From a virus, in the IMG/VR virus record IMGVR_UViG_3300042866_002225, positions 1 to 20,762 of that record: a DNA stretch of 20,762 bases. One strand, given 5' to 3'. Both the position numbers and the translations under genes were made by a program. Under the pieces are notes generated by a model. It was given only the letters and a program-made list of their open reading frames with translations, was not told the origin of the DNA and made no database searches. This document shows, in pieces, positions 3,556-19,389 of this stretch (the first letter of the stretch is position 1; every line of letters begins with the position of its first letter).

Positions 3556-4932
3556 TCAGTCGACTTGTCCCAGCGGGTCGAAATCGGCGGGGATGACGCT
3601 TTCGCCTGACATGCTCGCGGCTGCCATAAGTTCAGGCACGTCAGTCATCTGCTGGTTTTTCAACTCAGCCATAACCTGTGCCCGATACTTCTTAGCAGGG
3701 TCGCAAACGGTGTACTCGTTGACGCCGAGCAAGCCGTGGAGGACACCAAGCACTTTCTTATTTTCTTCGAGCGCCATTGAGGCTTCCACTTCGGAGATCG
3801 CACCCTGTTTCGTGATGCCGAGAGCCGAAGAGAAGACGAGCGGCGTGTCCGCGTTTTTAGTGCCGTGTTTATACTCCAAGTCACAAACCTGTCGTACAAG
3901 CGCTGGCAATTTCGGATCAATGCCCGGCTGCGGCTTTTTGTCGGACGCTTGCAAGTCCATGAGCAAGCGAATAGAGGCCGTGTGCCAGTCCCAGTAATGA
4001 TACTGCTGGTTTCGATAGTTTTCATTTCCGTCAGCGTCCTTTGCTGAAACGATGTCGTTGTACCACATGAGGTTAACGACTAATTTGCGACCCGGAGCGC
4101 CAAGATTGTTCTTGGTCGCCATAAGTCGCACGGCTTGACCCTCGGCTCTGCCAGCCACGATGTTGTTTCGCGCTGCTTTCTGCATGTCGATAATCAACGT
4201 CGGGTAGTAGTCGAGGCTGGCGCCGCCCGGGGCGTATTTCTTGGGCGGGCCGAAGCCCATGGAGTTAATCTCTTCCTTGAGATGGTTTGTTGCGATAAGT
4301 GCAATCGGATAGTGACGCAGCGTGGGCACAAGAGCCGTCCGCATAAAGTCCGACAAATTGCGCGCCAGATACGGATGACCTGCCGCGGCATGTCCTTCGT
4401 CGGCTACCTTTTCAACGCGCCTATCAACCTCGACAGCCGATATTGAATCGACGCCGATACAAATAGGAATAACGCGATCGGGCGCATTAGCGGCGTCAAT
4501 CTGCGTGTGGATGGCTTTGCAAAAACCCATGTACTTCATCTGCCACTCTTCCACGCTGGCGGCAGTCGTGACTTTAGTGCGGGCAATATGCTGTGGATTA
4601 TGCCCCAGCATGCCAGCCAGCATCGTCGGACTGCCCTTGTTCTCGGTGTCGATCAGAATCGCCCCACCGCCGTAAACGTGAAACCACCGCATAATCTCCA
4701 GCAACAACGCCGACTTGCCGGCGCTGAACTCTCCGCGGAGTTGTGTGAACCGAGACAGCGGGAAAATGTTGGCCTGCAACAAATAACGCGCCGCCAAGGT
4801 CGGCAGAGGAATGCCGATCAGCGGATCATTATCTTCCGCCGTGGCTTTAAGCACTTCAGTGATTACTGGGTGCTCACCGTTTACGTCAAATACGCTGACG
4901 TCCGAATCTGCATCTTTCTTCTTGCGGCCCAT
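3556..4932 (-). CDS. recA: RecA/UvsX-like strand-exchange recombinase
   Basis: 458 residues from ATG at 4932 (MGRKKKDADSD). AGGA lies about 10 nt upstream. A longer in-frame version from 5019 would have to be translated through a terminator hairpin and is rejected. The protein would form ATP-dependent filaments on single-stranded DNA and drive pairing and strand exchange. Visible motifs are the Walker A GEFSAGKSA (67-75), the catalytic-glutamate region ILIDTEN (Glu97), the Walker B ICIGVDSISAV (Asp162), and IATNHL at 213-218 followed by a Gly-rich loop PPKKYAPGGASLDYYPTL (about 229-246), where RecA has its DNA-binding loop L2. A region of about 130 residues beyond the core is divergent. The length exceeds E. 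coli RecA (353) and T4 UvsX (391). The gene is separated from its upstream neighbour by a likely terminator, so it may depend on read-through or on a promoter I cannot identify. Confidence 0.9.
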   Translation of the reverse strand: MGRKKKDADSDVSVFDVNGEHPVITEVLKATAEDNDPLIGIPLPTLAARYLLQANIFPLSRFTQLRGEFSAGKSALLLEIMRWFHVYGGGAILIDTENKGSPTMLAGMLGHNPQHIARTKVTTAASVEEWQMKYMGFCKAIHTQIDAANAPDRVIPICIGVDSISAVEVDRRVEKVADEGHAAAGHPYLARNLSDFMRTALVPTLRHYPIALIATNHLKEEINSMGFGPPKKYAPGGASLDYYPTLIIDMQKAARNNIVAGRAEGQAVRLMATKNNLGAPGRKLVVNLMWYNDIVSAKDADGNENYRNQQYHYWDWHTASIRLLMDLQASDKKPQPGIDPKLPALVRQVCDLEYKHGTKNADTPLVFSSALGITKQGAISEVEASMALEENKKVLGVLHGLLGVNEYTVCDPAKKYRAQVMAELKNQQMTDVPELMAAASMSGESVIPADFDPLGQVD

Positions 4933-4956
4933 GAATAATGTGTCCTGTGTACGAGT

Positions 4957-5014
4957 AAAATAAATAACCGTCTCGGGGCCGGAGCAAAATGCGCGCAACC
5001 CGCGGCCCCGAGAC
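4957..5014 (-). terminator. Strong intrinsic-terminator-like hairpin between the 454-residue gene and recA
   Basis: A perfect 12-bp GC-rich inverted repeat: GTCTCGGGGCCG at 4970-4981 and CGGCCCCGAGAC at 5003-5014, with a 21-nt loop. Transcribed from the minus strand, the stem is followed by GGTTATTTATTTTACTC, a T-rich though interrupted tract (4957-4967). It begins 9 nt after the stop of the upstream gene. It could be a terminator, a partial terminator (attenuator) limiting recA, or a 3' mRNA-stabilising stem. Confidence 0.75.
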
Positions 5015-5023
5015 AGCAAAAGA

Positions 5024-6388
5024 CTACTTCTTCAACTTGGCCGCTTTAGCGCGAGCGCGAGCAAGAATGTCAGCCGGCTTCAACTTGTCACCGGCAGGCT
5101 CCGGCGCAGAAACCGGGGCCGCAGGTGCAGAAAACAACTCGCCAACGCCTGCGGCTTCTTCGGCACTAATCTCGCCGCTGGGTGCCGCGTCTTCCCACGG
5201 AGCAGGAGCCGGCGCCGCAGGCTTTGAAACAACCGGCTTGGGAGCCGGAGCGCGCTGCTGGAACGCCTGCACTGCTTCGTCGTTCTCGTCGTCGATAAAA
5301 TCAGACGTCGGCGGGGCCGATGTGGTCGTGTTGCGCCCAAGCGCCCGCAAATACTGCGGATACTCGCGCCACGCGAACTCAAGGGCTTCCCGCGGAAACG
5401 CGCCGGCTAACTTCTCAGCCTGCTCTTCGTACGACAGCACGTTGAGCATCTGATCCCACGACTGCGCTTCTTCCGTAATACGCTCAGCGTGCTCCTCAAG
5501 AGAAATCTGCTGACCGTTATACGTATCGTGCACAATCGCAAAGTGGGTAAACGCGCTACGACGATCCGGCGGCGGATAACCCACGATGTACTGCGAATCC
5601 TTCGGTCCGCGAGCATACTTCGGGCAGAAGAACGTTTCGGGGCCGTCAGCACCGATGCCCATAACCTTCTGTTCCTTGCTCTGGAACGCTTCGGGCAGAA
5701 TGGTAAGCAACTTCGCTGGACCGAACGACAACATATCGCCAGTCGAGTACTCGTTGGTGTCTGGATCGCGTACCTTGAGAATGGAGAACAGCGACTGAAG
5801 CGCGCTAAACTTCAAACCAATTACACGAGCGTTTTTCTTGGGATCGTCAAGAAACTGACTTAACGCGATCTGCCCACGATCGTCGCCGACGATGCTGGCC
5901 GACAAAAACAGAATCTTTTCAGGCTTGGTCAGCGAGCCGATGTGCGACTTCATGACCTTTGGCTTCTGAAGCAGTTCGCTAAACAGCCTGCCGATGCCCG
6001 GTGTTTCCTTGTTCTTCCACGCGACGTTGTACAACAAGTTGTACGGGTTCTCGCGCAGGTCCATTTCCGGCGAACCATCCGTAAGGATAATGCACACGCC
6101 GGGATTACCCACCCAATGCGCTACAGTCCGTAAACGGCACCAGTCGCCGATGGCTACGTCGTCGGCGCCCTCTCGGAAGTTGACGAACTGGCGCTGACCA
6201 GTGCCCTCTTCGTACATGGGCATAAGCCGCAGGCAGAGGCCGTTGGCCATGAGTTCGTTACCCGCAGCAATCAGAACATTTTTGCCGTACGTATACGGGC
6301 TGTTCTTGCGGGAACCATTATCGAGATTGTGCTGCCGACGGAACTCGGGGTCGATGGCAGCAAGATTTTCAGAATCATACCGTGGCAT
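5024..6388 (-). CDS. Unknown 454-residue protein with Pro/Ala-rich linker; candidate ssDNA-binding or replication accessory protein
   Basis: It starts with ATG at 6388, with AGAGG 6 nt upstream. Residues 1-350 look globular, with no recognisable catalytic motif and little Cys. Residues about 352-435 are a low-complexity acidic Pro/Ala linker (DDENDEAVQAF, KPAAPAPAPWED, EISAEEAAGVGELFSAPAAP). The last 20 residues are a basic helix (KLKPADILARARAKAAKLKK). A globular core plus a flexible linker and terminal interaction peptide is the plan of many ssDNA-binding proteins and clamp-type accessories, although their tips are normally acidic, not basic. Position between polymerase and recA, and flanking terminator-like hairpins, suggest a separately controlled, possibly abundant protein. 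Lys is mostly AAG in the tail, unlike the AAA-rich small genes. No domain is recognised, so the function is inferred from context only. Confidence 0.85.
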   Translation of the reverse strand: MPRYDSENLAAIDPEFRRQHNLDNGSRKNSPYTYGKNVLIAAGNELMANGLCLRLMPMYEEGTGQRQFVNFREGADDVAIGDWCRLRTVAHWVGNPGVCIILTDGSPEMDLRENPYNLLYNVAWKNKETPGIGRLFSELLQKPKVMKSHIGSLTKPEKILFLSASIVGDDRGQIALSQFLDDPKKNARVIGLKFSALQSLFSILKVRDPDTNEYSTGDMLSFGPAKLLTILPEAFQSKEQKVMGIGADGPETFFCPKYARGPKDSQYIVGYPPPDRRSAFTHFAIVHDTYNGQQISLEEHAERITEEAQSWDQMLNVLSYEEQAEKLAGAFPREALEFAWREYPQYLRALGRNTTTSAPPTSDFIDDENDEAVQAFQQRAPAPKPVVSKPAAPAPAPWEDAAPSGEISAEEAAGVGELFSAPAAPVSAPEPAGDKLKPADILARARAKAAKLKK

Positions 6389-6502: not shown

Positions 6503-9500
6503 TCAAGCCCCCGATTTCTCGGCCAACCAGTGCAATCCAAGAGCCTTTGCGTCTTCTGCGGTCAAGGTCTCGCCCCAGTGGACGAACACTTCACGAGAAG
6601 ACCCAAACCGATACGGACCGGCGTCGATCTTTGAACCATCCAAACGGCGCGGATAAAACGGCACGTCTTCAATCATGCACTTCGGAACTACTTCTTTGTA
6701 CACCTGTTCAGCGTGCTCTATCGGCACAATCAACACAATGGCGTCGTGAATCTGCAACCCAATGCGGTAGTCGATTTCGGGGTGCTCGTCGCGATACCGT
6801 TGAAAGTTTGATAATGCGATAGACACGGCGTCAGCCACTCCACCTTGAATCGGGAAGTTCTGCGCCTGTCGTTCTTGCTCGCCACGAATGGCTTTGTCTT
6901 TAGACGGCACAAAACGACGAAAACGGCCGTACGGCCCCATCAACCATCCCGGGTTTTGAGACCGCGCACGGCACTCAGCCAAGAATGTCCGCGTGCGAGG
7001 ATACGAAGCAAAATACGCCTCAATCATCGCTTGACACTCTTCAGCCGAAACAGATACGCCTTCTTCCTTGCACTGCCGCGCTAGCGCCTCAGCGCCGCGG
7101 CCGTATGGAATACCGAAGTTCACGTTTTTGGCTGCCACTCGCAAACCGTGCTTGCCGGCTTTCTTCAAACCATTCTTAGTTGGCTCGACATCTGTGATGT
7201 TAAAAGTTTTGATAGCCTGCTGACTGTGGATGTCGTAGTGATCCGGGTGATCCTCTGGCAGAAGATTACGCCGAACGTGTTCAATCATGTCGGCGTCTTG
7301 GGATAACCACGCGAGGACCGCCAGTTCCGCACCAGTGAGGTCCGTTTCGATACCAACGCAGCCCTCGGGTACACGGAGGATCGACCGGACGGGATGCTGG
7401 TATTGGTCTCCGAGAATACGTTCGTAGTCGTTCTCGCGGCGGGAACTGAGGTTTTGCAGCGGCGGGCGGGAAGAAGAAGCGCGGCCCGTTTCCTTAGTTT
7501 GAAAGAAGTGCGTGCGAACTTTACCGTCAGCGTGTACGCAGCCAACAAGACCTTTTTCGTACGAGTAGTTGCCGTTTTCATCAAGTTCGTAATCTCCGTC
7601 ATCCGTGCGCGAGGGTTTACGCAATACAGACTGCAACACTTGGCTGACAAACTTGTAGTCGCGTATCTTTGCCGCCGTATCGTTCACGTGACCAAGAATG
7701 CCAAGGCTTTCTTTGTCGGTGCTGGGCGTGGCCGTGTCTGGATTAACGCCGCGCCAACCCATTTCGTTCCACAGTACCGGCCGTTTGCCAGTTGTTTTAA
7801 CCGGGCGCAAATTCAAAAGTTGAGCGCCTTCTGGGATATTGGGCGGGTTTGTGTAACGGTTAGAAAAATCCGCACCAAACAGCGCCACAGACAATTGTGG
7901 TTGACTTTTGGGATTGAATTCTGGCCAGTTAAGTTCTCGCCTGATCTCGTCCAACAACCGTTCTTGCGTGTTCATAAACAACGTTGTCAATTCGTCTGCG
8001 CGGCTGCGGTCAACAACGAGACCGGTCATTTCCATTTCCAAAAACGACAACGACGCTTGGTGCGCTGTCCAGTATGGCAACCAGCAATCGTGCCCTTGCG
8101 GATCACAGGCAATAGCGCCGTCTTTTCCGTTAGTACCGTAAAAGTACATCATGATGCGGCGAGTGACGTCGGCGTCGTATGCGCCGTAAGGATGAAGGAC
8201 GTGCGCCGGACAATCGCCGTAACCTTCCATGTCGCCGGCCTTCAGTTTGCGTTCCGCGCGGTAACGCTTTCGCCAGTCATTGAGTTCATCCCAATACGTC
8301 GGCGCCGTTGTGAACCGCATAGAGCAAACGTCGAGACCGTACTTCGCGCATTCGTTTATGGCGTGGTACATGAGACTGGTATCCCAGCCTCCGTGTGTGC
8401 GATCGTCAGGGTCATCAGCCGGGGCATACTCCGGACGTAAATCCACCCCAAAAGCAAAAAGCCATGGCAAGTCAGCACGGAAAAAGTGACCGCCCACACG
8501 TACATGTCGGTTGGGCGTATTTTTAAGTAAACGCAGCAATTGATCGCGAGCCGCCGACAGGTTTGGCTTAAACGCCTCGGCGCCTCCTTGATGCCGTAAA
8601 ACAATTGTTCTAGCCCACCTGTCTTTGTTAGATATTTGAATCGTACGTAAATAAGCGCCGTCTTCTGTCGGATAGTCTCCGTGCCACTCGCAGTCAACGG
8701 CGATGATGTTTGCGTTGAGATCGGTGTCAGCCAGCATGGCGTCTACCGTTTCACGCAGCGCCTCTTCAGTGTAGATATCGGCGTGGTCGACTTCTTCAGC
8801 AGTTGTTTCACGATTTTCAATCAAGTCGCGAAAGCGGGACATCTGCCCGCAAAAGTCTTCGTACATTTCCGGTTTGCGCAACACGTAACCCGGATGCATA
8901 ACCGACATGACTTTTATTTCGCGCTCATTTCCGTCAGCGTCATACGTTTTGAGCGTAGTTGCTCGACCGGCCAAATCAGACACGCTAGCGTTTGTGCTTA
9001 ATACGGCTTTGGTTGCCTCGTTGCCTAAACACAAAATGTAATCAGGCTGCACGAGCCGTATTTCTTGTGCAAGTAACACCGCGCAGTTTTTCAACCAAGC
9101 GGCAGGAACGGCTGGCGTATCCGGCGTCGGCGATCCAAATTTGCAAGCGTAAGTGATGTACCACTCTCGATAATCGCGCGGGTCGAATTCGCAATTTTTT
9201 AGCGCCTTGAAAAACGGCTCCATTACCGGACCAGTAACAGCGCTGCGATCATTCAACTCGGTAACGCCCGGGATTTTACCTACCACCATAACCTTTGCCG
9301 GTTTTGGGCCGTAGATTGGATCGTCACCCGTGCCGTACTTCAACAAATGCCCCGGAAGAAATTGCACAATCTCCGTGCCGCTCTTCAATGTAATCGGCAT
9401 GGAGAAACTTGGGTCGTAAAGTGCCGCACGATACAAATGCGCCAGTTTTTCGCCGACCGGCAATTTCTTCTTGTTTTTGATATTTACAACTGTCGGATCA

Positions 9501-9661
9501 TCGCCAAGCGCAACAGCGTGAGCGATAAAGTCGGCGCCCGCTGGGGGCATACCGACGGAGTCAAGCGCAACCATTGGGAACAGGTCCGCAGTGAGTTCTG
9601 CGCCTGTATCGTCGTAAAGTGCGCTAGCGTGTCGGTGATTCAAAGACACAGCGGAAGCCAT
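6503..9661 (-). CDS. polA: DNA polymerase: UDG-like domain, 3'-5' exonuclease and PolA polymerase fused
   Basis: 1052 residues, starting at ATG 9661 (AGAG upstream), 3 nt after the primase stop. Residues about 120-280 resemble family-4 uracil-DNA glycosylase: VMVVGKIPGVTE (124-135), ITYACKFGSPTPDTP (169-183), DYILCLGNEATKAVL (207-221) and MHPGYVLRKP (255-264). The exonuclease follows: Asp323-x-Glu325 in AVDCEWHGD, Asp397 in GHFFRADLPWL, and Tyr492-x3-Asp496 in YGAYDADVT. The polymerase has the RPPLQN segment (732-737), motif A DLTGAEL (Asp774, Glu779), motif B RVAAKNVNFGIPYG with Arg841, Lys845, Phe849 and Tyr853 in the Klenow 754/758/762/766 pattern, QNFPIQGG (934-941), and motif C QIHDAIV (His972, Asp973). 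There is no 5' nuclease domain. This is the replicative polymerase. The UDG-like part lacks some catalytic and Fe-S residues, so it may be inactive. Confidence 0.95.
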   Translation of the reverse strand: MASAVSLNHRHASALYDDTGAELTADLFPMVALDSVGMPPAGADFIAHAVALGDDPTVVNIKNKKKLPVGEKLAHLYRAALYDPSFSMPITLKSGTEIVQFLPGHLLKYGTGDDPIYGPKPAKVMVVGKIPGVTELNDRSAVTGPVMEPFFKALKNCEFDPRDYREWYITYACKFGSPTPDTPAVPAAWLKNCAVLLAQEIRLVQPDYILCLGNEATKAVLSTNASVSDLAGRATTLKTYDADGNEREIKVMSVMHPGYVLRKPEMYEDFCGQMSRFRDLIENRETTAEEVDHADIYTEEALRETVDAMLADTDLNANIIAVDCEWHGDYPTEDGAYLRTIQISNKDRWARTIVLRHQGGAEAFKPNLSAARDQLLRLLKNTPNRHVRVGGHFFRADLPWLFAFGVDLRPEYAPADDPDDRTHGGWDTSLMYHAINECAKYGLDVCSMRFTTAPTYWDELNDWRKRYRAERKLKAGDMEGYGDCPAHVLHPYGAYDADVTRRIMMYFYGTNGKDGAIACDPQGHDCWLPYWTAHQASLSFLEMEMTGLVVDRSRADELTTLFMNTQERLLDEIRRELNWPEFNPKSQPQLSVALFGADFSNRYTNPPNIPEGAQLLNLRPVKTTGKRPVLWNEMGWRGVNPDTATPSTDKESLGILGHVNDTAAKIRDYKFVSQVLQSVLRKPSRTDDGDYELDENGNYSYEKGLVGCVHADGKVRTHFFQTKETGRASSSRPPLQNLSSRRENDYERILGDQYQHPVRSILRVPEGCVGIETDLTGAELAVLAWLSQDADMIEHVRRNLLPEDHPDHYDIHSQQAIKTFNITDVEPTKNGLKKAGKHGLRVAAKNVNFGIPYGRGAEALARQCKEEGVSVSAEECQAMIEAYFASYPRTRTFLAECRARSQNPGWLMGPYGRFRRFVPSKDKAIRGEQERQAQNFPIQGGVADAVSIALSNFQRYRDEHPEIDYRIGLQIHDAIVLIVPIEHAEQVYKEVVPKCMIEDVPFYPRRLDGSKIDAGPYRFGSSREVFVHWGETLTAEDAKALGLHWLAEKSGA

Positions 9662-9664
9662 TGT

Positions 9665-10744
9665 TCACTCTAGAAATGAGATATCAGCCGAGACGTCTAC
9701 CGACGCGGCTGCGGAAGAAAGAATGTCACGCAGTTCCTCCCGCGAATAATCCGCGGGGTCGCGTGCGTCCGGCAAAACAACCGGAACTACATGCACGTTG
9801 TGCTGGCACAGTTGCGTGACCACCTGCTCCAACTCCTTTTGGGCGTCGCAATCTAGCATGACGAAAACAGGTTTTCCAGCCCACGTCGTCGCAACCGTGT
9901 TTTCCTGCCAGTAAGACAGCGTCTTACCGAACAGGGACACCCCGGAGCGCCCCAGCCGCCAAACACTGGGGGCGCCTTCGACAAGAACGACCGCCGGTTG
10001 CCGGCAAGCATTGTCGTAGTTGTACAACGCCCTGCTTTTACGGCCCTGCGTATAGTATTTGATTTCTTGTTTGTTCGACGTATTACGCGTTAGCCGACCT
10101 TGCCACGCAACAAGTTGCCCGTTGAATAACGACGGAATGTATATCCGGCCGTTCATGATTCGGTAGCGGCTACTCGCGTCGGTGCACAAACCGACGTGGA
10201 ATGTCTCGGCCAACTCGTTGATATCAAATTGCCGCGACGTTAGGTATTGAATAGCCGGATGTGTCGGCGGTAAGTCTCGCAGATCAATGATGTCGCCGGG
10301 GGCTTCTATTGTCTCAGACGACGAGGCTACATCGCCACTACGGATTGGCATTCTCTTCGCACCCCATTTGCCGGGGCCGAAGATCATGTCCTCCAATTGC
10401 CCTGCACGACCATCTTGGGCTACGCAGTCGTTTTTGTAGCAATGCGCCAGAAAAGTATCTGTGCGTCGGCCTGTGCGCTGGTCATAATCAGCGCCGTATA
10501 GATGATTGATCCAGAGTTTATGCCCGACATCGTTACAGAACGGACAGCAAACGCAGTAGTATTCGCCCCACCAGTGCGCTTGGGTAATTATTCGTCCGGG
10601 ATGTAGCGGGTCTGGAAAACGCTGGATGTTGGCTGCGGAGCCGGCATTTGCAAACTTGACTTCGCCAAACTTGTGTTCCAGCAAAGCGTACAAGTTCGGA
10701 TTTAATGGGTTGACTTTAGGCGCTGACGACTTGGTCATTGCCAT
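9665..10744 (-). CDS. Zinc-finger/TOPRIM DNA primase
   Basis: 359 residues from ATG at 10744, with a perfect AGGAG 5 nt upstream that includes the last bases of the helicase stop codon. The N-terminal zinc-binding region has C64, C66, C67 and C70 (YYCVCCPFCND), then H101/C102 and C107 (AHCYKNDC), an atypical CHC2-like arrangement. The TOPRIM part shows VVLVEGAPSVWRLG with Glu256, and VFVMLDCDAQ with Asp298 and Asp300, the usual acidic metal-binding set. PAIQYLTSRQFD (163-174) and VAWQGRLT (212-219) match the segment that links zinc finger and TOPRIM in phage primases. It would make RNA primers for the lagging strand together with the DnaB-like helicase encoded just upstream; here the two are separate polypeptides, as in T4 gp61/gp41, not fused as in T7 gp4. 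Confidence 0.85.
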   Translation of the reverse strand: MAMTKSSAPKVNPLNPNLYALLEHKFGEVKFANAGSAANIQRFPDPLHPGRIITQAHWWGEYYCVCCPFCNDVGHKLWINHLYGADYDQRTGRRTDTFLAHCYKNDCVAQDGRAGQLEDMIFGPGKWGAKRMPIRSGDVASSSETIEAPGDIIDLRDLPPTHPAIQYLTSRQFDINELAETFHVGLCTDASSRYRIMNGRIYIPSLFNGQLVAWQGRLTRNTSNKQEIKYYTQGRKSRALYNYDNACRQPAVVLVEGAPSVWRLGRSGVSLFGKTLSYWQENTVATTWAGKPVFVMLDCDAQKELEQVVTQLCQHNVHVVPVVLPDARDPADYSREELRDILSSAAASVDVSADISFLE

Positions 10745-10752
10745 AAAAACTC

Positions 10753-12450
10753 CTAAAACATGTTCTCACTTCCGAACGTGTCAATGTTTGGCATTACGCG
10801 CCGGCGGGTTGAGTCAGGGGCTACTACTACGTTGTTGTGCGCCGTAGGTGCCGCGTCATCGCGCCGCATGATTTTCTTTGCAAGGTCGTTGACGTAATAT
10901 TCGTCATCGACCGCCCGAACGTCGACCACGTCCTCATCAATTTTGACAAGACCAAATGGCGTAGCGGGACGACCGAAACGAATCTTAGACCAGTTGATTG
11001 TCGATACGTGCGTTTCAGGGTCGGGGCGGTTAAGGCACAAGCAAGCGTGCAAATTCTCAGCAAAAGCCTTTGAACCCTGCGCGTCGCCGTGCGTGACGTG
11101 CCGGTAAGGTGGGATGTTCTTCACATCACCTTGCGCCAACTGATGCGCCAACAAGATTGTGCAACCAAATGGTATCGAGATTTTCGTTTTAAGTTCATCA
11201 GGCAACATTTGCAACGGACGCCAGATTTGCTCCTGATATTTCGTGCTGGCATTCTGCGACATTTCGCGATTGATCAGCGGACCGGCGTAGTCAATGCATA
11301 CGACGCCGATCTCCATGCCGGTTTGCTCTGTTAGATTTTCCAGCGTCGCGGCAATCTCATGCACGCCGCCGTTACCCCTCCCGCCGGTTTCTGGATTTGA
11401 AGAAAAGTCGAGAAACGCGAAGTTCACGTTATACCATTGTTGCGCTGCGGCCCATCGGTCGCGTTCGCACAGAAGGATTTCTGAATTTGCGTTAACAGGG
11501 ATGTTGCGCTCGTACGGTTTGAGCGTGTCCCGCGTCGAAAGACCGGCCCACACTTCTTCCGGCGTTTTGTTGATAAACGCGTTACGTTCAATGTGCGCCG
11601 CAGCCGAGTACAGAGAAAAGTTGATCTTCTGCGCGCCGTCTTCGTAACCGATGTACACAGCAAGTTTGTTCTGACCATTGGCGGCGTACTGCTGCGCGAG
11701 GCGCACAGCCACGGTGCTAAGCATCGTCGTCTTACCGCCGGAGTACGGACCTAGCAGGCCAATAATATCGCCGGCGCGAAATCCGCCGATATAGTTATCA
11801 ATCCACGCAATCGTTGTCGGCACAGCCTGCGGCGGCAGAATGATGTTCTCGCCGACATTCGGCATGATGGCGGCGTTAACCGCCTCGTTGCCGACAAATT
11901 TGATTGCCTGCGCCTTTTTGTTGAACTGATCAAGCAGCCGCTGAAATTCAAGCGGCGACGTATTGTCGTTGCTGTGACTGATAATTTGCTTGAGTTGCTG
12001 CTTGAGCAACCGCGCATTTAAAAAGCGCCGCAAGATGTTTTCTACGTACGCGCGCTCCGCTCTGATTTCGTTTGCCTCTAACTCTCTGGCCAGCGGCGCA
12101 AAAGCAAAATCAATAAAACCTTCAGACTCATCATCCGCGCCGAACAAAAAGTCAGCCTCGTTCGGCCCCATCGCGATCAGGTTGCTCTGACTAACGGCTT
12201 CGATCTCCGAAAGAAACATGTCTTTCGTAACTGCTTCATGGCGTTGAAGCAGACTAATGTAGAGCAGCATAAACAATTGCAAGCCGTACTCGTTTGGGCC
12301 ATTGAATTGCTCCGGAGCAAACTCAACGCGCAGGGCTGACTTCAAAGCCGTGGGAAAGCGCACTAGCCCGCGAATGAGCGTTTTTAATTCCGCAAAAGTC
12401 AGCGGAACATCGTCAACGCCGACGTTATTTAATCGTCCTTGACTAAGCAT
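10753..12450 (-). CDS. dnaB: DnaB-family replicative DNA helicase
   Basis: 565 residues from ATG at 12450; GGAG lies 5 nt upstream and the start overlaps the preceding stop by 8 nt. An in-frame TTG at 12483 is less likely. The first 200 residues are helical, as in the DnaB N-terminal domain and linker. The RecA-type motor follows: Walker A GPYSGGKTT (234-242), YIGYEDGAQ (266-274) as the H1a-type glutamate segment, Walker B IGVVCIDYAGPL (Asp387), LLAHQLAQGD (433-442), and HGDAQGSKAFAENLHACLCL (454-473), like the DnaB GS-x-IEQDAD segment. It would be a hexamer that unwinds the fork. The next gene downstream encodes its primase partner. The motif set is clear, although the sequence is far from E. 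coli DnaB; a gp41-like phage helicase is the closest description. Confidence 0.88.
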   Translation of the reverse strand: MLSQGRLNNVGVDDVPLTFAELKTLIRGLVRFPTALKSALRVEFAPEQFNGPNEYGLQLFMLLYISLLQRHEAVTKDMFLSEIEAVSQSNLIAMGPNEADFLFGADDESEGFIDFAFAPLARELEANEIRAERAYVENILRRFLNARLLKQQLKQIISHSNDNTSPLEFQRLLDQFNKKAQAIKFVGNEAVNAAIMPNVGENIILPPQAVPTTIAWIDNYIGGFRAGDIIGLLGPYSGGKTTMLSTVAVRLAQQYAANGQNKLAVYIGYEDGAQKINFSLYSAAAHIERNAFINKTPEEVWAGLSTRDTLKPYERNIPVNANSEILLCERDRWAAAQQWYNVNFAFLDFSSNPETGGRGNGGVHEIAATLENLTEQTGMEIGVVCIDYAGPLINREMSQNASTKYQEQIWRPLQMLPDELKTKISIPFGCTILLAHQLAQGDVKNIPPYRHVTHGDAQGSKAFAENLHACLCLNRPDPETHVSTINWSKIRFGRPATPFGLVKIDEDVVDVRAVDDEYYVNDLAKKIMRRDDAAPTAHNNVVVAPDSTRRRVMPNIDTFGSENMF

Positions 12451-13195
12451 ACCTTCTCCAATGCTTCCTAATATCCGCGACAAACTTTTTTAGATTGGAA
12501 GAGACAAACCAGTCGAAATCCGAATTGGTTTCGATAAATTTGTCGTACAGGGGTTGCCGCGTTTCGTATTCAATTGCGGCTGGCCAAATGAATTTTTTCA
12601 CTGCGCGCTGACAATCTAGTTCTGCGGCAAAAGCGTGCCTGAAAAACGGCGTAGCATTTACGTGCGACGTATCACACATCACAAGCAATATGTGATCGTC
12701 TTCCGGCAAATTAAACGCTTCGGTGATTGTGTAACGCGTTGAAATTGACGCTTCAGCCAGAGTGTATTGAAGACTGGCGTGCGCGTCAAAGTTCGCCATG
12801 AATTCTTGATACACATTTAACGACACAGGGCTGCACATTAATTCTGGCTTGCCCTGCACCAGCGTTTTGCCGCTAGCGGCGCGGACCGCATATACAGCGT
12901 CGGAGAAGTGCGACGCGACCCAGACGCCGGGAATTGCGTCCGCAGCGCGAATCAGTTCGACCGTCTTGCGCCAGATAGATTTGTACTTAGAACCGTACAC
13001 ATCTTTGCCGCCGTCCCAGTGCGGCCGTCGCACGGTGTGCGCTGGCGCGTCCCAATCAATAGCGCCTTCCCGGAAATAAATGAACAGGTAGCGTATGTAC
13101 GCCATCAACTGTTCATCAGTTAAATCCCGATACCAATCATGATCCAGATAAGTTTGTTCATTGCTCTTTGGTTCGCCAACTCCTTGCAGCGTCAT
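12443..13195 (-). CDS. Unknown protein between two helicase genes
   Basis: 250 residues from ATG at 13195 (MTLQGVGEPKSNEQ), with GGGAG about 10 nt upstream. An in-frame TTG at 13270 would raise the overlap with the helicase gene from 38 to 113 nt. I do not recognise the family. The N-terminal part is rich in aromatic residues and Asp (LDHDWYRDLTDEQLMAYIRYLFIYFREG), followed by HTVRRPHWDGGKDVYGSKYKSIW and AIPGVWVASHFSDAVYAVRAA. The C-terminus is helical and basic (LKKFVADIRKHWRRY). No Walker or nuclease motif is visible. It lies between the SF2 helicase and DnaB and overlaps both, so an accessory role in replication, such as helicase loading (compare T4 gp59 by position and job, not by sequence), is a hypothesis. 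Confidence 0.8.
   Translation of the reverse strand: MTLQGVGEPKSNEQTYLDHDWYRDLTDEQLMAYIRYLFIYFREGAIDWDAPAHTVRRPHWDGGKDVYGSKYKSIWRKTVELIRAADAIPGVWVASHFSDAVYAVRAASGKTLVQGKPELMCSPVSLNVYQEFMANFDAHASLQYTLAEASISTRYTITEAFNLPEDDHILLVMCDTSHVNATPFFRHAFAAELDCQRAVKKFIWPAAIEYETRQPLYDKFIETNSDFDWFVSSNLKKFVADIRKHWRRYA
12456..12459 (-). promoter_or_regulatory. Ribosome binding site deciding the DnaB-like start
   Basis: The minus strand reads TGGAGAAGGT before ATG at 12448-12450. The GGAG core with a 5-nt spacer favours this ATG over the upstream in-frame TTG at 12483. The site lies within the 3' end of the preceding gene, so translation is probably coupled. Confidence 0.65.
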
Positions 13196-14690
13196 TCCAA
13201 TCTTGCTCCCAGCCCAACAATTTGTAACTATCGCGGCGTCCAGTGCTTTTGCGATAGAACGTTGGGTCAAATGTGTCCATACAATCGAGAACTTCGCCGA
13301 ATTCTTTCACTACACCGTCTGGCGACGTGTATGTACGACTTACGCGGCCGGGACCTTGTACGTCGACGATGTCGCTGTCGCGGTCATCTGCGCGAACCAA
13401 TACGTTTAATTGCTCAAAGTCCACGCCGGTCGCCCATACGTCGGTAGCAATGACTTTTCGTAATGTTCCGTTTTCAAATGCCGACCTCATGTCGTGCTTT
13501 TGCACATCTGTTAACGGCCGATAGTCTTGCGGCAGTAACTTTAGTTTCTTGTAGGCCGTGCAATCGTAGGGCGCCATTTGCGAATACATCAGCGTAAACT
13601 CTGGTAAAAGCGACCCGAGATGCACCGCGTGTTCAATGGTTTCTACAAGTATCAAAATCTGACTATCGGCGGGGTAGCCTCGCACGGCTTCCGCGATGAT
13701 GTTGTTGCGGGCGTAATTCGTCCAAATGCCGTGCCGCTTTCGTGCGACGCGGTGCTTGTACCTCTCGGCGGGGTTGTGTGTCAAGCGGATTGGCAGCCAC
13801 CGCACGCGGACCGGCACAACAAGGCCCAATTCGACCGCTTGCTGGTAAGGCAGGTCAAAGATCATGGGGCCGAAGAGCGGCTCCAGAATGGCGTGTGCGT
13901 TGTCCATACGCGCATACGGCGTTGCCGACAAGCCGAAATTTTTAGAGTTGCGGTATCGCGCCGCCAGTGCTGTAGAAAAGTTGATGGTGGCAAGTTGGTG
14001 AACTTCGTCTGCAAACATGAAGTCGGCTTCGCCGTCAGCGTGCTGAAGGCTGCCCGCCGTGATCACCGTAACTCTTTCACGTTGTTTCCACCCGTCGCCA
14101 ATCATGCCTACCTTGGGCACAAACCTCCGAAGGCTACGAACAATACGCTCGGCTACGTCGACGCTTTTAGTGACTACGTCAATACGCGCTTCTGGGAAGA
14201 GTTGCGACGCTGCGCCAATCAGCGTTGTCTTGCCGAAACCCGTGACAGCCTTAATTACGCCGCACGGAACGCGAGAGATAAGTTGCAAGCACTCTTCCTG
14301 CCGAGGCCGGAATTCAATCTTGCCGGCCAAATTCTCCCAATGCGGCACGTAACAGTTTGGGCGCTTACGGGTCGGCGACGCGTCTACCAGCGTTAAGTTG
14401 CAGCCTAATTTCTTAAGCCGCCTGAGCATGCGCGCCAGATAACCGCTTAGCACGACAACGTGACCGTTTTCAATGCGGTAGAGTTTGTATTCGCGCGTTT
14501 GGAAGAATATCCGTTGGCCGGTTATAGGATTCTTACGAGACTGTCCGTGAAGTTGCTCAACGTGATCGTATCGTAAATCTTTTGTCAGGCGGATTGCCAG
14601 TTCGGGATTTAACGCAGAGCCGCCTTCACCAGTAATTTTGAGTACGTTGTTGATCTTGTTGATCACAACTGGATAGCCGGCAAAATTCAT
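13158..14690 (-). CDS. Superfamily 2 DNA helicase, UvsW-like
   Basis: 510 residues from ATG at 14690 (MNFAGYPVVINK), 1 nt after the upstream stop. A longer frame from 14888 is rejected because its extra 66 residues merely read the upstream gene in another frame. Motifs: Q/R region FRPRQEECLQ (127-136), Walker A AVTGFGKTTL (148-157), DEVH box ADEVHQ (227-232), motif III GLSATP (253-258), ATDVWATGVDF (415-425) and motif VI VQGPGRVSR (444-452). The N-terminal YLARMLRRLKKLGCNL (84-99) recalls the small N-terminal domain of T4 UvsW. UvsW-type helicases unwind branched DNA and R-loops and promote branch migration, which fits with the recombinase and SbcCD-like genes in this cluster. T4 UvsW has 587 residues. 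The SF2 call is secure; the UvsW role is inferred. Confidence 0.9.
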   Translation of the reverse strand: MNFAGYPVVINKINNVLKITGEGGSALNPELAIRLTKDLRYDHVEQLHGQSRKNPITGQRIFFQTREYKLYRIENGHVVVLSGYLARMLRRLKKLGCNLTLVDASPTRKRPNCYVPHWENLAGKIEFRPRQEECLQLISRVPCGVIKAVTGFGKTTLIGAASQLFPEARIDVVTKSVDVAERIVRSLRRFVPKVGMIGDGWKQRERVTVITAGSLQHADGEADFMFADEVHQLATINFSTALAARYRNSKNFGLSATPYARMDNAHAILEPLFGPMIFDLPYQQAVELGLVVPVRVRWLPIRLTHNPAERYKHRVARKRHGIWTNYARNNIIAEAVRGYPADSQILILVETIEHAVHLGSLLPEFTLMYSQMAPYDCTAYKKLKLLPQDYRPLTDVQKHDMRSAFENGTLRKVIATDVWATGVDFEQLNVLVRADDRDSDIVDVQGPGRVSRTYTSPDGVVKEFGEVLDCMDTFDPTFYRKSTGRRDSYKLLGWEQDWNDAARSWRTKEQ

Positions 14691-14691
14691 G

Positions 14692-15189
14692 TTAGTCGCT
14701 TCCCGGTCCGGCGACTGGTTCGATAGATATGACTTCAAATGTCCCATATTTTTCTTGTACGTTGTTAAATGGCGAGAACCCCTTGTACTTGCCGACCAAC
14801 GTGAGCAAGTGGTTGAAGTCCGCCAATGATATCTCATCGGGCAGCACGGCGGAAATGACCACCGAATCTCCCGGGCGAAAAGCCTCATGCAGCGCGTAAT
14901 GACTGCGCATTCCCTCTCCGCCTTGATTTGGCGTCAGGATCGTACGCCGCCAATCGTTACGCGGCTGACCTACAACGACAGGGCACCAATCTATTTTTTT
15001 GACAGCAGAATGATGCCGATTAGCAATCTTGGCTGCGTAACGCATGCTACTCAGCCAAGCCGACGACATAAACATTACACGATCACTGGGGTCACGTTCG
15101 AAACAGAAAAGAACTTGACCGTGTCGTCGCTTTTTGGCGGCGCCAAGACACACGCGGTTAAATCGAATTGTGACCGTAACCTCTTGCAT
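14692..15189 (-). CDS. Unknown protein, 165 residues
   Basis: It begins with ATG at 15189, 1 nt after the upstream stop (TAA-T-ATG), and ends 1 nt before the helicase start. The two single-nt junctions suggest that the three genes are translated together. I do not recognise a family. The sequence is compact and basic in the first half (FNRVCLGAAKKRRHGQ, AAKIANRHHSAVKKIDW), with a beta-rich second half (GDSVVISAVLPDEISL). It ends with GKYKGFSPFNNVQEKYGTFEVISIEP (about 133-158). A G-x-G-x-SP...YG-x-FEV pattern like this occurs, as I recall, at the C-terminus of uncharacterised phage proteins. It could be an RNA- or DNA-binding protein, but this is not shown. Confidence 0.8.
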   Translation of the reverse strand: MQEVTVTIRFNRVCLGAAKKRRHGQVLFCFERDPSDRVMFMSSAWLSSMRYAAKIANRHHSAVKKIDWCPVVVGQPRNDWRRTILTPNQGGEGMRSHYALHEAFRPGDSVVISAVLPDEISLADFNHLLTLVGKYKGFSPFNNVQEKYGTFEVISIEPVAGPGSD

Positions 15190-15190
15190 A

Positions 15191-16129
15191 TTACGTCTTC
15201 ACGTGCATGTGTTGCGTGTACGTCTTTATCTCAGCAGGCGATTTGAAAAACAGGTTTGGAGCAAATAACCCGTCTTTTGTGCCTTTACGATTTTCGAGCG
15301 CGGACAACCAGTTATCGTTGACGTAGCGCAAAAACGCCTGAGACGCCCGCAAATCGCCGCGATTGCCTCCGCCGGCTGCTTTTCGAATGCGGTACAAAAA
15401 GTTGGCTGGATTTGTCAAATCCACGATGTCATCTGAAACTGTCTTCCAACTTGCCAACACGGACTCGCACCGAAACTCTCTAGTCTTTGTCAGCAACTTT
15501 TTGTTATTTGAAACCTTCGACTGCACTGCTGGCGTTAGCCCTAAAAACAACTCTAGTTTTTTGAGCCGGTCGGGGCGGCGGCGGTCTACGTACCAGCGCG
15601 GGTCAATGATATGAATCAGCATCTTTGTCGCGGCTTCTTGATCCAGCGTCGGAATAAACGTTAACGCTTTGTGCGCCGGATGCATTTGAAAATACTGTTG
15701 CGTCGACTCGTCGTGCGTGTAGTTCGTGCGAAGCGTTCTGGCTAACAACGCGTAAGCCGGATAATCGTTCATAGTCAACTGATGCCAGCCGCCACAAGCC
15801 GGCGAAATCGCCGCGGTGCGCATGCGCTGAAGCACTAACTCTGGACTACCAAGTTCGTACTGGTTGTCCAAAATATTAGGGCCGGCGACCTCTATGGATC
15901 GCACCTCGCCTTTGTATCTGCGCAGATACAACGCGCTGATGAGTTCGGCATTTTGCTTTACGCCTAAAATGCGAAATGTCAGGCCCATACCGGCAACAAT
16001 CGGCGACATCAGGAAACTGTCGACAATTTGTTCCGAATTTCTAGGCGCACTTATGCCGCGGGCGTACCAAACTTTACCGTCGTCCGCAGTATGAAGTTTA
16101 ATGATAGTTTCATCCTGCGGTACGTACAT
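15191..16129 (-). CDS. Unknown protein, 312 residues
   Basis: It starts with ATG at 16129 with CGGAG 7 nt upstream, and overlaps the end of the SbcC-like gene by 20 nt. I do not recognise the family. The first 130 residues look alpha/beta (MYVPQDETIIKLHTADDGKVWYARGI, YKGEVRSIEVAGPNIL). Residues about 145-175 have aromatic and His-rich stretches (TNYTHDESTQQYFQMHPAHKAL), and the C-terminal third is basic and helical (KVSNNKKLLTKTREF, RIRKAAGGGNRGDLRASQAFLRYVNDNW). No nucleotide-binding or nuclease motif is visible. It sits between the SbcC-like ATPase and the UvsW-like helicase with coupled junctions on both sides, so it is probably part of the recombination machinery or its control. Confidence 0.8.
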   Translation of the reverse strand: MYVPQDETIIKLHTADDGKVWYARGISAPRNSEQIVDSFLMSPIVAGMGLTFRILGVKQNAELISALYLRRYKGEVRSIEVAGPNILDNQYELGSPELVLQRMRTAAISPACGGWHQLTMNDYPAYALLARTLRTNYTHDESTQQYFQMHPAHKALTFIPTLDQEAATKMLIHIIDPRWYVDRRRPDRLKKLELFLGLTPAVQSKVSNNKKLLTKTREFRCESVLASWKTVSDDIVDLTNPANFLYRIRKAAGGGNRGDLRASQAFLRYVNDNWLSALENRKGTKDGLFAPNLFFKSPAEIKTYTQHMHVKT

Positions 16130-18266
16130 TGCGTAACTCCGGCGGTTCTAGTTCGATCGTAGACTCAAACAGGTGGGACAAACTAGCAGCGTGGGTAACA
16201 AGTAAACATTGTAACCCTTTTGCCGTCGACAAGTCGCGTAACTTTTCTAAGACCGGCGCCAGCGCTTGAATACGCGGCTGATCCAAAGACGCAGTCGGCT
16301 CGTCCAACGCAAGCAAACCAATCTCTTCGGCGAACATGGCGTTACAGGCGACTCGAAACGCAATAGCCAAGACGGTTTTTTGACCGATCGACAAGCGTTG
16401 CGCGACTTGCCGCCGGCCGTCGTAAAACTCCGCGATGAAATTTGGCGTGCCGTCGCCGGACACACGAATCTGAAAGTTGACACTGAAAACCTGCAATAGT
16501 TCGTTTATTGACGTTTCTAGTTTTTCCAGATTGCGCTGCGCAACAATTCGCGGCGCGTTCTTCAAGGCCTCGCGGGCCTGCGTTGCAAGGGCGGACCACT
16601 GCCTCATTTTAACAGCGTCGTTCTCTTGTTTTAAAGTTGCTGCGTGTTGTTCCTGTAATTTGCGATGATTTGCCGCTAACTCAAATTTCTGCTGCTCTAA
16701 CGTCTGTCGGTGGGCACATTGCTCGCGAAGAGATGTCAACCGCGCGTTCGCCATATGGGCGTCGGCTTGCGTGGCTGTAATCTCTTTAATGTCTTCCCCC
16801 AACTTCGCCATACGCTCGCGAACGGCCGTCAAAGCGCCGGTCAGTTTGGCGACGTGTTCCCGAGTCTTTTGCATCAACGGCGACAATTCATTTTGCGCCG
16901 CTTGAAAATCCTCAAAATCTGACACGGCTTGCTGAAGTTCTTCTTCGGTAGACTCTGGCGGCTTGACAGCAGTCAAATCGCGTTCGGAGTCATCGAGATG
17001 CTTTTCGCGAGCCTTTAACTTGTCCTCCAGCAGTTCCCACTGGCTGCGGAGTTTTTCAGCCGAAGCGGCTTTGTCCGCTTCTTCAGTCAAATCAGAAAGC
17101 AGTTGCCTCAATTTAGGAATGTGCGCCTGCTGCTCATTAACTTGCGACGCTAACTGGGCTGAGGGCGTATGACAGGTGGGGCACTCGGCTACACCTTCCT
17201 CAGTGAACATGGCAACGAACCGCTCGGCGTCTTTGATTTGACGTATGACGGAATCAGCCTGTCGGCGCAGTTGCGCCGCTTCGATCCCACTGTAAATGGG
17301 CGGTTCTGGATTCTTAACGCGTTCTGCCGCAATGGCGTCACGCTGTTCTTGAATCTTGGTTTTAACCTTTGCGATGTTCTTGTAATTTTCCCAGTGGCCT
17401 AAAGCAATCTTGGCGTCACGATGGGCATCTTCTTTGCCCTCGATAGCCGAAGAAAACGCTTCAAGGTCTTTCTTGTACTGCCGGCAAGTTTCTTCCGATT
17501 CTTCAATTTCCTTTTCGTATTCAGTTGCTTGTTGAGACAACCGTTGCAGTTCAATGCCTGCTTTTTCACGGTTTTCCCATTGCTGGATAAGTTTCTGGTC
17601 GCGTTCTTGGGCTTGCAAAAATGCATCGAGCGTAGGCAGCGCATCTATTTGCGTCTTTAACGCTGTGATTTGTTTGGCGACCTCTTCTTGTTCCAGAACT
17701 ATTTGCGAACTGGGTTTGATGATTTCGGGCACGTTGAGTTTCAGCAAGCCCTTACCAATTGCATCTTGGCATTTATCGGCTTTGGCTGTATTGAACAACC
17801 GCTGAAAGAATTTGTCCGTGTCCGTCTGATTATCGTCGATAAACGAAAATATCTCGGTCTGGGAAACGATGATGAACCTGCTGATAAACTTGGCGTCAAC
17901 ACCCAGCAGTTTTTCGATCCCAGCCGTTACCGCCTTGTCGCCGCGCGCAGATTCTTTACCGTCTACCGTTAAGATAGATTGTTCTTTTTCGGGCAAAAGG
18001 TAGCGGGTAACAACCGCGATGTGCCCGTTGTGCTCGAATTCAAGCGTTGCGTATGACGGCTCACCCTCTTTGGCGTATTGGCTGACGTTGTCTGCCTTTA
18101 CGCCGTAGTTAGGGTTTTCGCCGGTAAGGAGCCAGCGGATGGCGCCGAAAAGACTACTCTTGCCAGAACCGTTTTCACCAAGAATGGCAACAAGCCCGCG
18201 TGTGAACTCACACGTGCGCTGCCGATGGTGAACCCAGTTCCTCACTTCCAATTTCAGAAGTTGCAT
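16110..18266 (-). CDS. sbcC: SbcC/Rad50-like ATPase with zinc hook
   Basis: 718 residues from ATG at 18266; GAGGA lies about 5 nt upstream, inside the end of the SbcD-like gene (59-nt overlap). Walker A GENGSGKSS (30-38) is followed by a Q-loop (SQTE, 135-138). Long coiled coils (about 180-350 and 380-590) flank the zinc-hook CPTC (362-365), which sits near the middle as expected. The ABC signature is RLSIGQKTVLA (624-634), Walker B is LLALDEP (651-657) and the D-loop is TASLD (658-662); His692 in VTHAAS is the switch histidine. With its partner nuclease it would process double-strand ends and hairpins, feeding recombination-dependent replication, as T4 gp46/gp47 do. It is longer than T4 gp46 (560) and shorter than E. 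coli SbcC (1048), mostly through coil length. Confidence 0.93.
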   Translation of the reverse strand: MQLLKLEVRNWVHHRQRTCEFTRGLVAILGENGSGKSSLFGAIRWLLTGENPNYGVKADNVSQYAKEGEPSYATLEFEHNGHIAVVTRYLLPEKEQSILTVDGKESARGDKAVTAGIEKLLGVDAKFISRFIIVSQTEIFSFIDDNQTDTDKFFQRLFNTAKADKCQDAIGKGLLKLNVPEIIKPSSQIVLEQEEVAKQITALKTQIDALPTLDAFLQAQERDQKLIQQWENREKAGIELQRLSQQATEYEKEIEESEETCRQYKKDLEAFSSAIEGKEDAHRDAKIALGHWENYKNIAKVKTKIQEQRDAIAAERVKNPEPPIYSGIEAAQLRRQADSVIRQIKDAERFVAMFTEEGVAECPTCHTPSAQLASQVNEQQAHIPKLRQLLSDLTEEADKAASAEKLRSQWELLEDKLKAREKHLDDSERDLTAVKPPESTEEELQQAVSDFEDFQAAQNELSPLMQKTREHVAKLTGALTAVRERMAKLGEDIKEITATQADAHMANARLTSLREQCAHRQTLEQQKFELAANHRKLQEQHAATLKQENDAVKMRQWSALATQAREALKNAPRIVAQRNLEKLETSINELLQVFSVNFQIRVSGDGTPNFIAEFYDGRRQVAQRLSIGQKTVLAIAFRVACNAMFAEEIGLLALDEPTASLDQPRIQALAPVLEKLRDLSTAKGLQCLLVTHAASLSHLFESTIELEPPELRNVRTAG

Positions 18267-19389
18267 TGGGTTCCTCAGTCATGAATTTAGAGAACTGCGC
18301 TTCTAATTCTTTGCCGGGATCATCTGCCGTCAAAAGCGCAGAGGCTAGTTTGTACGCCTTGTTTTCACCGCCAATTAAATCAGACACAGCAGACAGCAAA
18401 TCGTTCTTTACCGTATCGCGAGTCGGGCCTTGTCGTTGCGAAGTCTTATCAGTCAAAGCCTCGCAAAACAAGTGCGCCAAGTCGGCGACGACCGTTGTGA
18501 CGCGAAGGAACGCGTCAGGTAGGCGCTTATCGAACTTGACGCGCACCAACGGCCTGTGAATGTCTGAATGATGCCCAGCAGCCTTTGCGTGTTCAGTAAG
18601 CGCCGTGATTTCTTTCAACAAACGGCCGGCGCAAAGTTCGTCTAGAAATTCTTGCTCTTTAACAGCGTAACTAATAACGCCGCGCGTCTTGAGTTGTTTT
18701 GGTGTAAAGACGATTTGACCGTCGTGCTCGCAAATCACAAAAAACGATTTCTGCGAGTCTTCGCCCATGTCCTGCATCGCCGTCGAGCCGGGCGAAAGCA
18801 TCTTAATAGGCTTGCCCTGCGCATTCGTGCTTTCCGCCACCTTGGTGACGTGAAAGTCGCCGGCCAATACAGTTTGAACGTGATGCACTTCTGTCAGTTC
18901 GCACTCGGTGCGGCCAATGCTGCCCATAAAGTCTTTCCAGACCTGATGAGTTACCAAGATATCAGTATCTTCCGGGACGGCCTGAAACGCGGCTTGAATT
19001 TCGCCGCGCGGTAGCCAATCTAACCCCCAAACAGATATGTCACCCAGCGGGCCGAAGGTGGCCGCGGCGTTATGCAGATGAATAGGCCACGGATGAATTG
19101 ACAACCAAGGTGCGTTACGGTCGTACTCGTGATTGCCTTGAATGTAATAAACGTTCAATTGTGCCGTTTGCATTCGGGACAAGCCGGCGCAAAGTTTTGT
19201 GATCGGGCGCGCAAGATTTTGTTTGCGCTCCAAAACGTCGCCGCCAAGGATGAGCGGCAAACGGTGTTCGATACAGTAATCAATTATCTGCGCAAAACTG
19301 TAATAGGCATCGCCGTATATGCCCGGTTTTGTCGACCAAGCGCCGTCCTCTAAATGTAGGTCAGCGCTAAACACAAAAAGCGGCTGCAC
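18208..19389 (-). CDS. sbcD: SbcD/Mre11-like metallo-phosphoesterase nuclease
   Basis: 393 residues from GTG at 19389 (AGAGG 7 nt upstream, spacer a run of seven T). The calcineurin-like motifs are in order: SADLHL (Asp10, His12), LGGDVLE (Asp51), GNHEYD (Asn86, His87), LVTHQ (His148) and AGDFH (177-180 core, His180). In the last motif the usual GHxH has Asp178 in place of the first His, a change that could affect the metal site or be a tolerated variant. After about residue 200 come LSPGSTAMQDMGE, a helical C-terminal region that would bind the SbcC-like coiled coil, and an acidic, polar tail. It overlaps the SbcC-like gene, so the two subunits are probably made in step. The neighbours support a gp47-type role in end processing. 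Confidence 0.9.
   Translation of the reverse strand: MQPLFVFSADLHLEDGAWSTKPGIYGDAYYSFAQIIDYCIEHRLPLILGGDVLERKQNLARPITKLCAGLSRMQTAQLNVYYIQGNHEYDRNAPWLSIHPWPIHLHNAAATFGPLGDISVWGLDWLPRGEIQAAFQAVPEDTDILVTHQVWKDFMGSIGRTECELTEVHHVQTVLAGDFHVTKVAESTNAQGKPIKMLSPGSTAMQDMGEDSQKSFFVICEHDGQIVFTPKQLKTRGVISYAVKEQEFLDELCAGRLLKEITALTEHAKAAGHHSDIHRPLVRVKFDKRLPDAFLRVTTVVADLAHLFCEALTDKTSQRQGPTRDTVKNDLLSAVSDLIGGENKAYKLASALLTADDPGKELEAQFSKFMTEEPNATSEIGSEELGSPSAAHV

Follow-up and report, generated by a model that had tools for sequence, protein, structure and literature searches.

A polymerase-fused uracil-DNA glycosylase-like domain, probably devoid of uracil-excision activity, in a group of viral family-A DNA polymerases

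The stretch of viral DNA analyzed here (hereinafter, the window) comprises an entire IMG/VR record of 20,762 bases and is a fragment of its virus genome. Within a run of minus-strand replication genes, the window encodes a protein in which a uracil-DNA glycosylase (UDG)-like domain, a 3'-5' exonuclease domain and a family-A DNA polymerase domain are combined in a single chain (Table 1). From its location, the 454-residue protein encoded nearby could be a single-strand-binding or replisome protein. An antisense open reading frame (7394-8440, plus strand, 348 aa) that overlaps the polymerase gene has no Pfam match and was not called a gene.

Table 1. Features of the window discussed in the text; the counts refer to the alignment of 43 polymerase sequences.
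Feature	Position	Strand	Support or remarks
UvsX/RecA-like recombinase	3556..5019	-	phrog_97, E 6e-29
454-aa protein, between the polymerase and UvsX-like genes	5024-6388	-	no Pfam or PHROG match
UDG-like/3'-5' exonuclease/family-A DNA polymerase, 1052 aa	6503..9661	-	Pfam, PHROG, alignment
N-terminal extension, residues 1-116	9314..9661	-	no cysteines; from about residue 70 part of the UDG fold
UDG-superfamily core, residues 117-285	8807..9313	-	PF03167, profile search, fold
3'-5' exonuclease domain, residues about 300-510	8132..8764	-	PF01612 and motifs
Family-A polymerase core, residues about 530-1010	6632..8074	-	PF00476 and motifs
K129, at the motif-1 Glu position (Tth E41)	9275..9277	-	Lys in 43/43
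E135, equivalent of Tth E47	9257..9259	-	E 36, N 6, S 1 of 43
Y171, at the uracil-reading Asn position (Tth N80)	9149..9151	-	F 33, Y 4, H 3, A 2, S 1; N 0 of 43
H256, equivalent of the catalytic His (Tth H155)	8894..8896	-	H 38, N 5 of 43
DNA primase, next upstream of the polymerase in the same replication run	9665..10744	-	phrog_47, E 1.8e-33
DnaB-like replicative helicase	10753..12483	-	phrog_19, E 2.1e-19
Helicase	13158-14888	-	Pfam/PHROG
SbcC-like	16110-18266	-	Pfam/PHROG
Metallophosphoesterase	18208-19389	-	Pfam/PHROG

Searches of IMG/VR for relatives of the polymerase yielded at first eleven loci and then 44, and the window sequence was aligned with 42 close relatives (43 sequences altogether). 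The contigs that carry these relatives reach 205 kb and, although none is marked complete, ten of them measure 193.8-205.2 kb, pointing to a genome size of approximately 200 kb for the group. A scan of cellular genome contigs for a host detected no relative. The gene complement of one relative of 198,312 bases includes collagen-like repeats, a sulfotransferase, glycosyltransferases, thymidine kinase, thymidylate kinase and a pyrimidine-dimer DNA glycosylase.

The reading frame of the polymerase is uninterrupted over 1052 codons, from the ATG at 9661 down to 6503, and three Pfam domains score above their cut-offs along it, namely, UDG (PF03167, residues 117-266; E 2.5e-14, 54 bits against a cut-off of 24.3), DNA_pol_A_exo1 (PF01612, residues 313-410; E 2.9e-5, 24.4 bits against 23.6) and DNA_pol_A (PF00476, residues 630-996; E 1.5e-47, 162.8 bits against 34.3). 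The first-pass annotation, which had recognized a UDG-like layout in the N-terminal third of the protein and a one-chain fusion of this domain with exonuclease and PolA domains, is borne out by these matches. The possibility that a sequencing error had joined two separate genes, which the annotation itself raised, is ruled out because a full-length frame of about 1050 residues is found in nearly all of the 43 sequences and recurs in about 40 related contigs; two partial pieces (L011 and L063) come from one contig, and each stops where the stored sequence ends. The arrangement, with three domains in one frame, is that of the SPO1-type UDG-exonuclease-polymerase fusions and is colinear with the known members (blastp alignments with LysYB1 over 118-1002 and with ctfzr933 over 117-1007). 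Moreover, the alignment with phrog_17 (DNA polymerase; E 2.5e-98) spans residues 120-1021, so that the UDG part belongs inside a known PHROG family.

By the criteria of PF00476, phrog_17 and motifs A (D774/E779), B (R841-K845-F849-Y853) and C (H972-D973-A974), the C-terminal part of the protein is a family-A DNA polymerase. Motif C (6740-6748, minus strand) reads HDA as opposed to the usual HDE of bacterial PolA; HDA or HDS is found at this position in several other phage fusions as well. The exonuclease domain contains all the metal-binding motifs (D323-x-E325, D397 and Y492-x3-D496), which, together with the PF01612 match, identify it as a predicted proofreading exonuclease.

The AlphaFold2 model of residues 1-300, built on 35 family sequences (mean pLDDT 82.7, pTM 0.82), has as its top structural match the family-4 UDG 4zbx (Z 19.1, 2.6 Å over 185 residues), with further matches to 1ui1 (Z 18.2) and UdgX (Z about 17-18), in agreement with Foldseek. 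Superposition on the UDG part of the Thermus phage phiLo polymerase (9qhs_A) gave Z 13.3 and 2.6 Å over 158 residues, and hmmsearch with a profile of the 35 family members matched 1ui0 with E 3.4e-11. The structure prediction that had been proposed as a check of the UDG-like assignment thus speaks in its favor and, combined with the PF03167 match, the modeled fold makes the domain a member of the UDG superfamily. In a full-length AlphaFold model, the UDG part was good, and the rest was too poor to place the domains (mean pLDDT 47.3).

Despite the retention of the fold, the residues that define the enzymes of family 4 are extensively replaced. In Tth UDGa, the uracil pocket consists of E41, G42, E47, F54, N80 and H155, with N80 reading N3 and O4 of uracil, whereas N89 places the water; the respective substitutions reduce k2/Km 888-fold (E41Q), 120-fold (E47A), 44-fold (N80A), 7-fold (N89A) and about 2500-fold (H155S) (PMC5387724). 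The motifs quoted for the UDG-like region in the first-pass annotation are present in the window, except that motif 1 is GKIPG, not GEAPG, and the entire group, with GKxPG, departs from the GE(A/G)PG signature of family 4. Asparagine is missing at the uracil-reading position throughout the 43 sequences, in which the F54 equivalent is lost as well and the N89 equivalent is not conserved. A single one of the four Fe-S cysteine columns is kept (C193), and residues 1-156 contain no cysteine. Of the pocket residues, only the catalytic histidine (H256) and the E47 equivalent (E135) persist in most of the sequences. Judging by sequence, therefore, the N-terminal domain lacks three defining features of family-4 UDG enzymes. 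Because the pocket residues are replaced and comparable mutations are so costly to Tth UDGa, the domain appears to be inactive as a glycosylase, with uracil excision probably lost; the notion of a polymerase carrying its own uracil-recognition module, which had been put forward for this protein, finds no support, the very residues that read and excise uracil in Tth UDGa being replaced. The KRRIH loop of UdgX, with its nucleophilic histidine, is not found between residues 174 and 190 of the window polymerase either. No separate UDG is encoded elsewhere in the genomes of the relatives, where the polymerase is the sole PF03167 match.

The UDG part has nevertheless evolved under constraint. In every comparison, dN was well below dS, with dN/dS of about 0.055-0.18 where dS could be estimated, saturation of dS being frequent. 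The mean identity to the window is 59% for the UDG part, compared to 78% for the exonuclease and 82% for the polymerase. In the 35-member alignment of the N-terminal region, K129, W167, T170, A172, C173, K174, C211, K218 and P257 are invariant, and R262 and K263 are nearly so; K129, K174, K218, R262 and K263 fall within the former DNA-binding motifs. Given this purifying selection, the domain is in use, although probably not as a glycosylase.

Taken together, these observations make it reasonably likely that the protein is a replicative family-A polymerase of uncultivated phages with genomes of about 200 kb, with a non-catalytic, UDG-derived N-terminal module that grips DNA or docks the replisome. 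Under this scenario, the domain would descend from a family-4-like uracil-DNA glycosylase, would have lost uracil excision and would have been retained as an accessory module of the replicase, most likely holding on to DNA close to the polymerase or serving to dock the replisome; the DNA-binding or docking role is proposed because the fold is retained and the lysines are invariant. Counted in its favor are the domain architecture, the fold, the loss of the pocket and the Fe-S site, the conservation across the 43 sequences, the purifying selection and the replication-gene neighborhood. The retention of the histidine and, in most members, of the E47 equivalent counts against it and might point to some base binding or weak catalysis.

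A rival interpretation, in which the domain is a purely structural, protein-docking module for the primase, helicase or single-strand-binding protein and contacts neither DNA nor bases, accommodates the faster evolution of the UDG part relative to the polymerase and the location of the gene in a run with the primase and DnaB helicase genes. We regard it as rather unlikely, however, given that five basic residues of the former DNA-binding motifs are invariant or almost so. Archaeal family-B polymerases have a uracil pocket, and, by analogy, the domain might bind uracil in the template before the polymerase reaches it and leave the base in place. The UDG fold and the retention of the histidine and E47 equivalents in most members would fit such a sensor, but the N80 position is never asparagine and both E41 and F54 are lost, so this possibility appears quite improbable.

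More speculatively, the invariant lysine could itself be chemically engaged. K129 occupies the motif-1 glutamate position of family-4 UDG and UdgX, and in UdgX, the residue at this position, E52, operates near C1' of the flipped-out nucleotide (PMC10359453). Conceivably, a Schiff base might arise between K129 and an abasic site, in which case the domain would be a replicase-borne sensor or trap for abasic sites. The invariance of K129, while the histidine and E47 equivalents vary, fits a new chemistry without amounting to proof, and we consider this scenario a long shot.

Hardly more plausible, and perhaps slightly less so, is an active uracil-DNA glycosylase that cleans the template, a role that has been suggested for the fusion protein of phage PaBG (PMC7412058). 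The fold and the catalytic histidine are kept, and other phage fusions, those of ctfzr933 and vir526, possess the complete pocket along with all four cysteines; however, in the group studied here, E41 is replaced by lysine in all sequences, N80 is lost and the histidine itself gives way to asparagine in 5 of the 43, and comparable changes cost Tth UDGa 44- to 2500-fold. The full pocket in ctfzr933 and vir526 also counts against the preferred, non-catalytic reading, in that the ancestral role of the domain may have been enzymatic.

The first-pass annotation also entertained a phage with a modified thymine, such as hydroxymethyluracil, in which the domain would tell bases apart, and proposed a search for homologs of dUMP hydroxymethylase, dUTPase or thymidylate synthase. 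As the window is a fragment, this search was carried out on 12 records from its group (ten measuring 194-205 kb), with positive controls that gave matches. No match was obtained in any of the 12 for thymidylate synthase/dUMP hydroxymethylase (PF00303), ThyX (PF02511), dUTPase (PF00692), the PurZ-type family (PF00709) or QueC (PF06508). A tblastn search of the 198 kb relative with the SPO1 dUMP hydroxymethylase, phage thymidylate synthase and QueC/D/E/FolE produced only a weak deaminase hit; a dCMP-type deaminase (PF00383) is encoded in 8 of the 12 records, and the two kinases of the 198 kb relative, for thymidine and thymidylate, are common phage nucleotide genes. Thus, nothing in the predicted gene content of the relatives speaks for DNA with hydroxymethyluracil or uracil, although genes of the MazG/dUTPase_2 families may be present and other modification routes are possible. 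In isolated or named phages with UDG-polymerase fusions, base-modification or thymidylate genes are frequent, which may be due to chance; examples are the dUMP hydroxymethylase of SPO1, the pyrimidine hydroxymethylase, thymidylate synthase and ThyX of ctfzr933, and the 7-deazaguanine genes of MaInes and BSTP5. The presence of such genes in several fusion phages speaks for the modified-thymine hypothesis, and the lack of PF00303, PF02511, PF00709 and PF06508 matches in the ten 194-205 kb relatives speaks against it; we consider it the least probable of all.

Fusions of a UDG domain to a phage polymerase are not without precedent and occur, among others, in phages of Rhizobium and Pseudomonas. 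A tblastn search with the UDG part retrieved SPO1 gp31 and its kin, LysYB1, Serbin, PMBT14, Lebethron, Brevundimonas phage MaInes and BSTP5, and a hand-written family-4-like consensus, which had no other purpose than to uncover more fusions, added phiLo, Rhizobium phage RHph_TM30, Microcystis phage Mel-JY34, Xanthomonas phage phiXF1, ctfzr933 and a Methanomicrobiales virus. The architecture was described in 2020 for PaBG gp205 and the Lupandier group (PMC7412058), and the statement in the first-pass annotation that the SPO1 polymerase has a UDG-like N-terminal region proved correct, in keeping with the old UDG-family name in PDB records, 'Phage SPO1 DNA polymerase-related protein'. The literature searched contained no publication that describes the structure of the phiLo polymerase, and the UDG domain goes unmentioned in two papers on polymerases and in a survey of jumbo phages. 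In a tree of the fusions, the group of the window forms a strongly supported clade (100/100) on a long stem (2.39 changes per column), and long branches and weak deep forks surround its placement.

The pocket varies across these proteins. Ctfzr933 and vir526 have an intact pocket and four cysteines, and that of phiLo, MaInes and RHph_TM30 is nearly intact; the pocket is altered in LysYB1, SPO1, BSTP5, Serbin and PMBT14, and in PaBG it is very degenerate. Fusions with intact and lost pockets offer a natural contrast for probing the function of the domain, which, in the group described here, has been kept under selection despite the loss of the residues for uracil excision; this argues for a role of the domain, at least in part, other than uracil repair across this widespread family (SPO1, PaBG, phiLo and others).

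The closest parallels differ from the window polymerase in several ways. The free-standing enzymes, namely, the family-4 UDGs (Tth UDGa, 1ui0, and that of S. tokodaii, 4zbx) and UdgX (6ajo), share the fold but have an intact motif 1 and N80 equivalent and, in UdgX, the KRRIH loop, all of which the window domain lacks. The polymerases of ctfzr933, vir526, Serbin, PMBT14, MaInes and RHph_TM30 are the same fusion but keep the four cysteines; the pocket is complete in the first two, whereas in Serbin and PMBT14 the E41 position is Asp and the N80 position Pro. The phiLo polymerase, the structure of which has been solved (PDB 9qhs, chain 9qhs_A; 'phiLo family-A DNA polymerase with modified template', which was released on 2026-03-25), has the same architecture but retains GEAPG, N80 and the four cysteines, unlike the window. 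PaBG gp205 and its counterparts in the Lupandier jumbo phages, with the published UDG-exonuclease-polymerase fusion (PMC7412058), have a degenerate pocket, too; in the alignment, gp205 lacks the motif-2 histidine, unlike the window, and in the comparison, which was one of the polymerases, its blastp match covers the polymerase region alone (22.6% over 323 aa). In the Herelleviridae, SPO1 gp31 and LysYB1 likewise carry the UDG-like, exonuclease and polymerase domains on one chain, and the LysYB1 polymerase is the best full-length match to the window among those compared (23.8% over 915 aa). SPO1 gp31 has lost the Fe-S cysteines, as has the window, but its motif 1, QENPF, keeps the glutamate, in contrast to GKIPG, and SPO1 encodes a dUMP hydroxymethylase, gp29, whereas none was found in the group of the window. 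The UDG-exonuclease-polymerase architecture is, accordingly, already known, and the window polymerase is a variant distinguished by the invariant lysine of motif 1 together with the lost Fe-S site.
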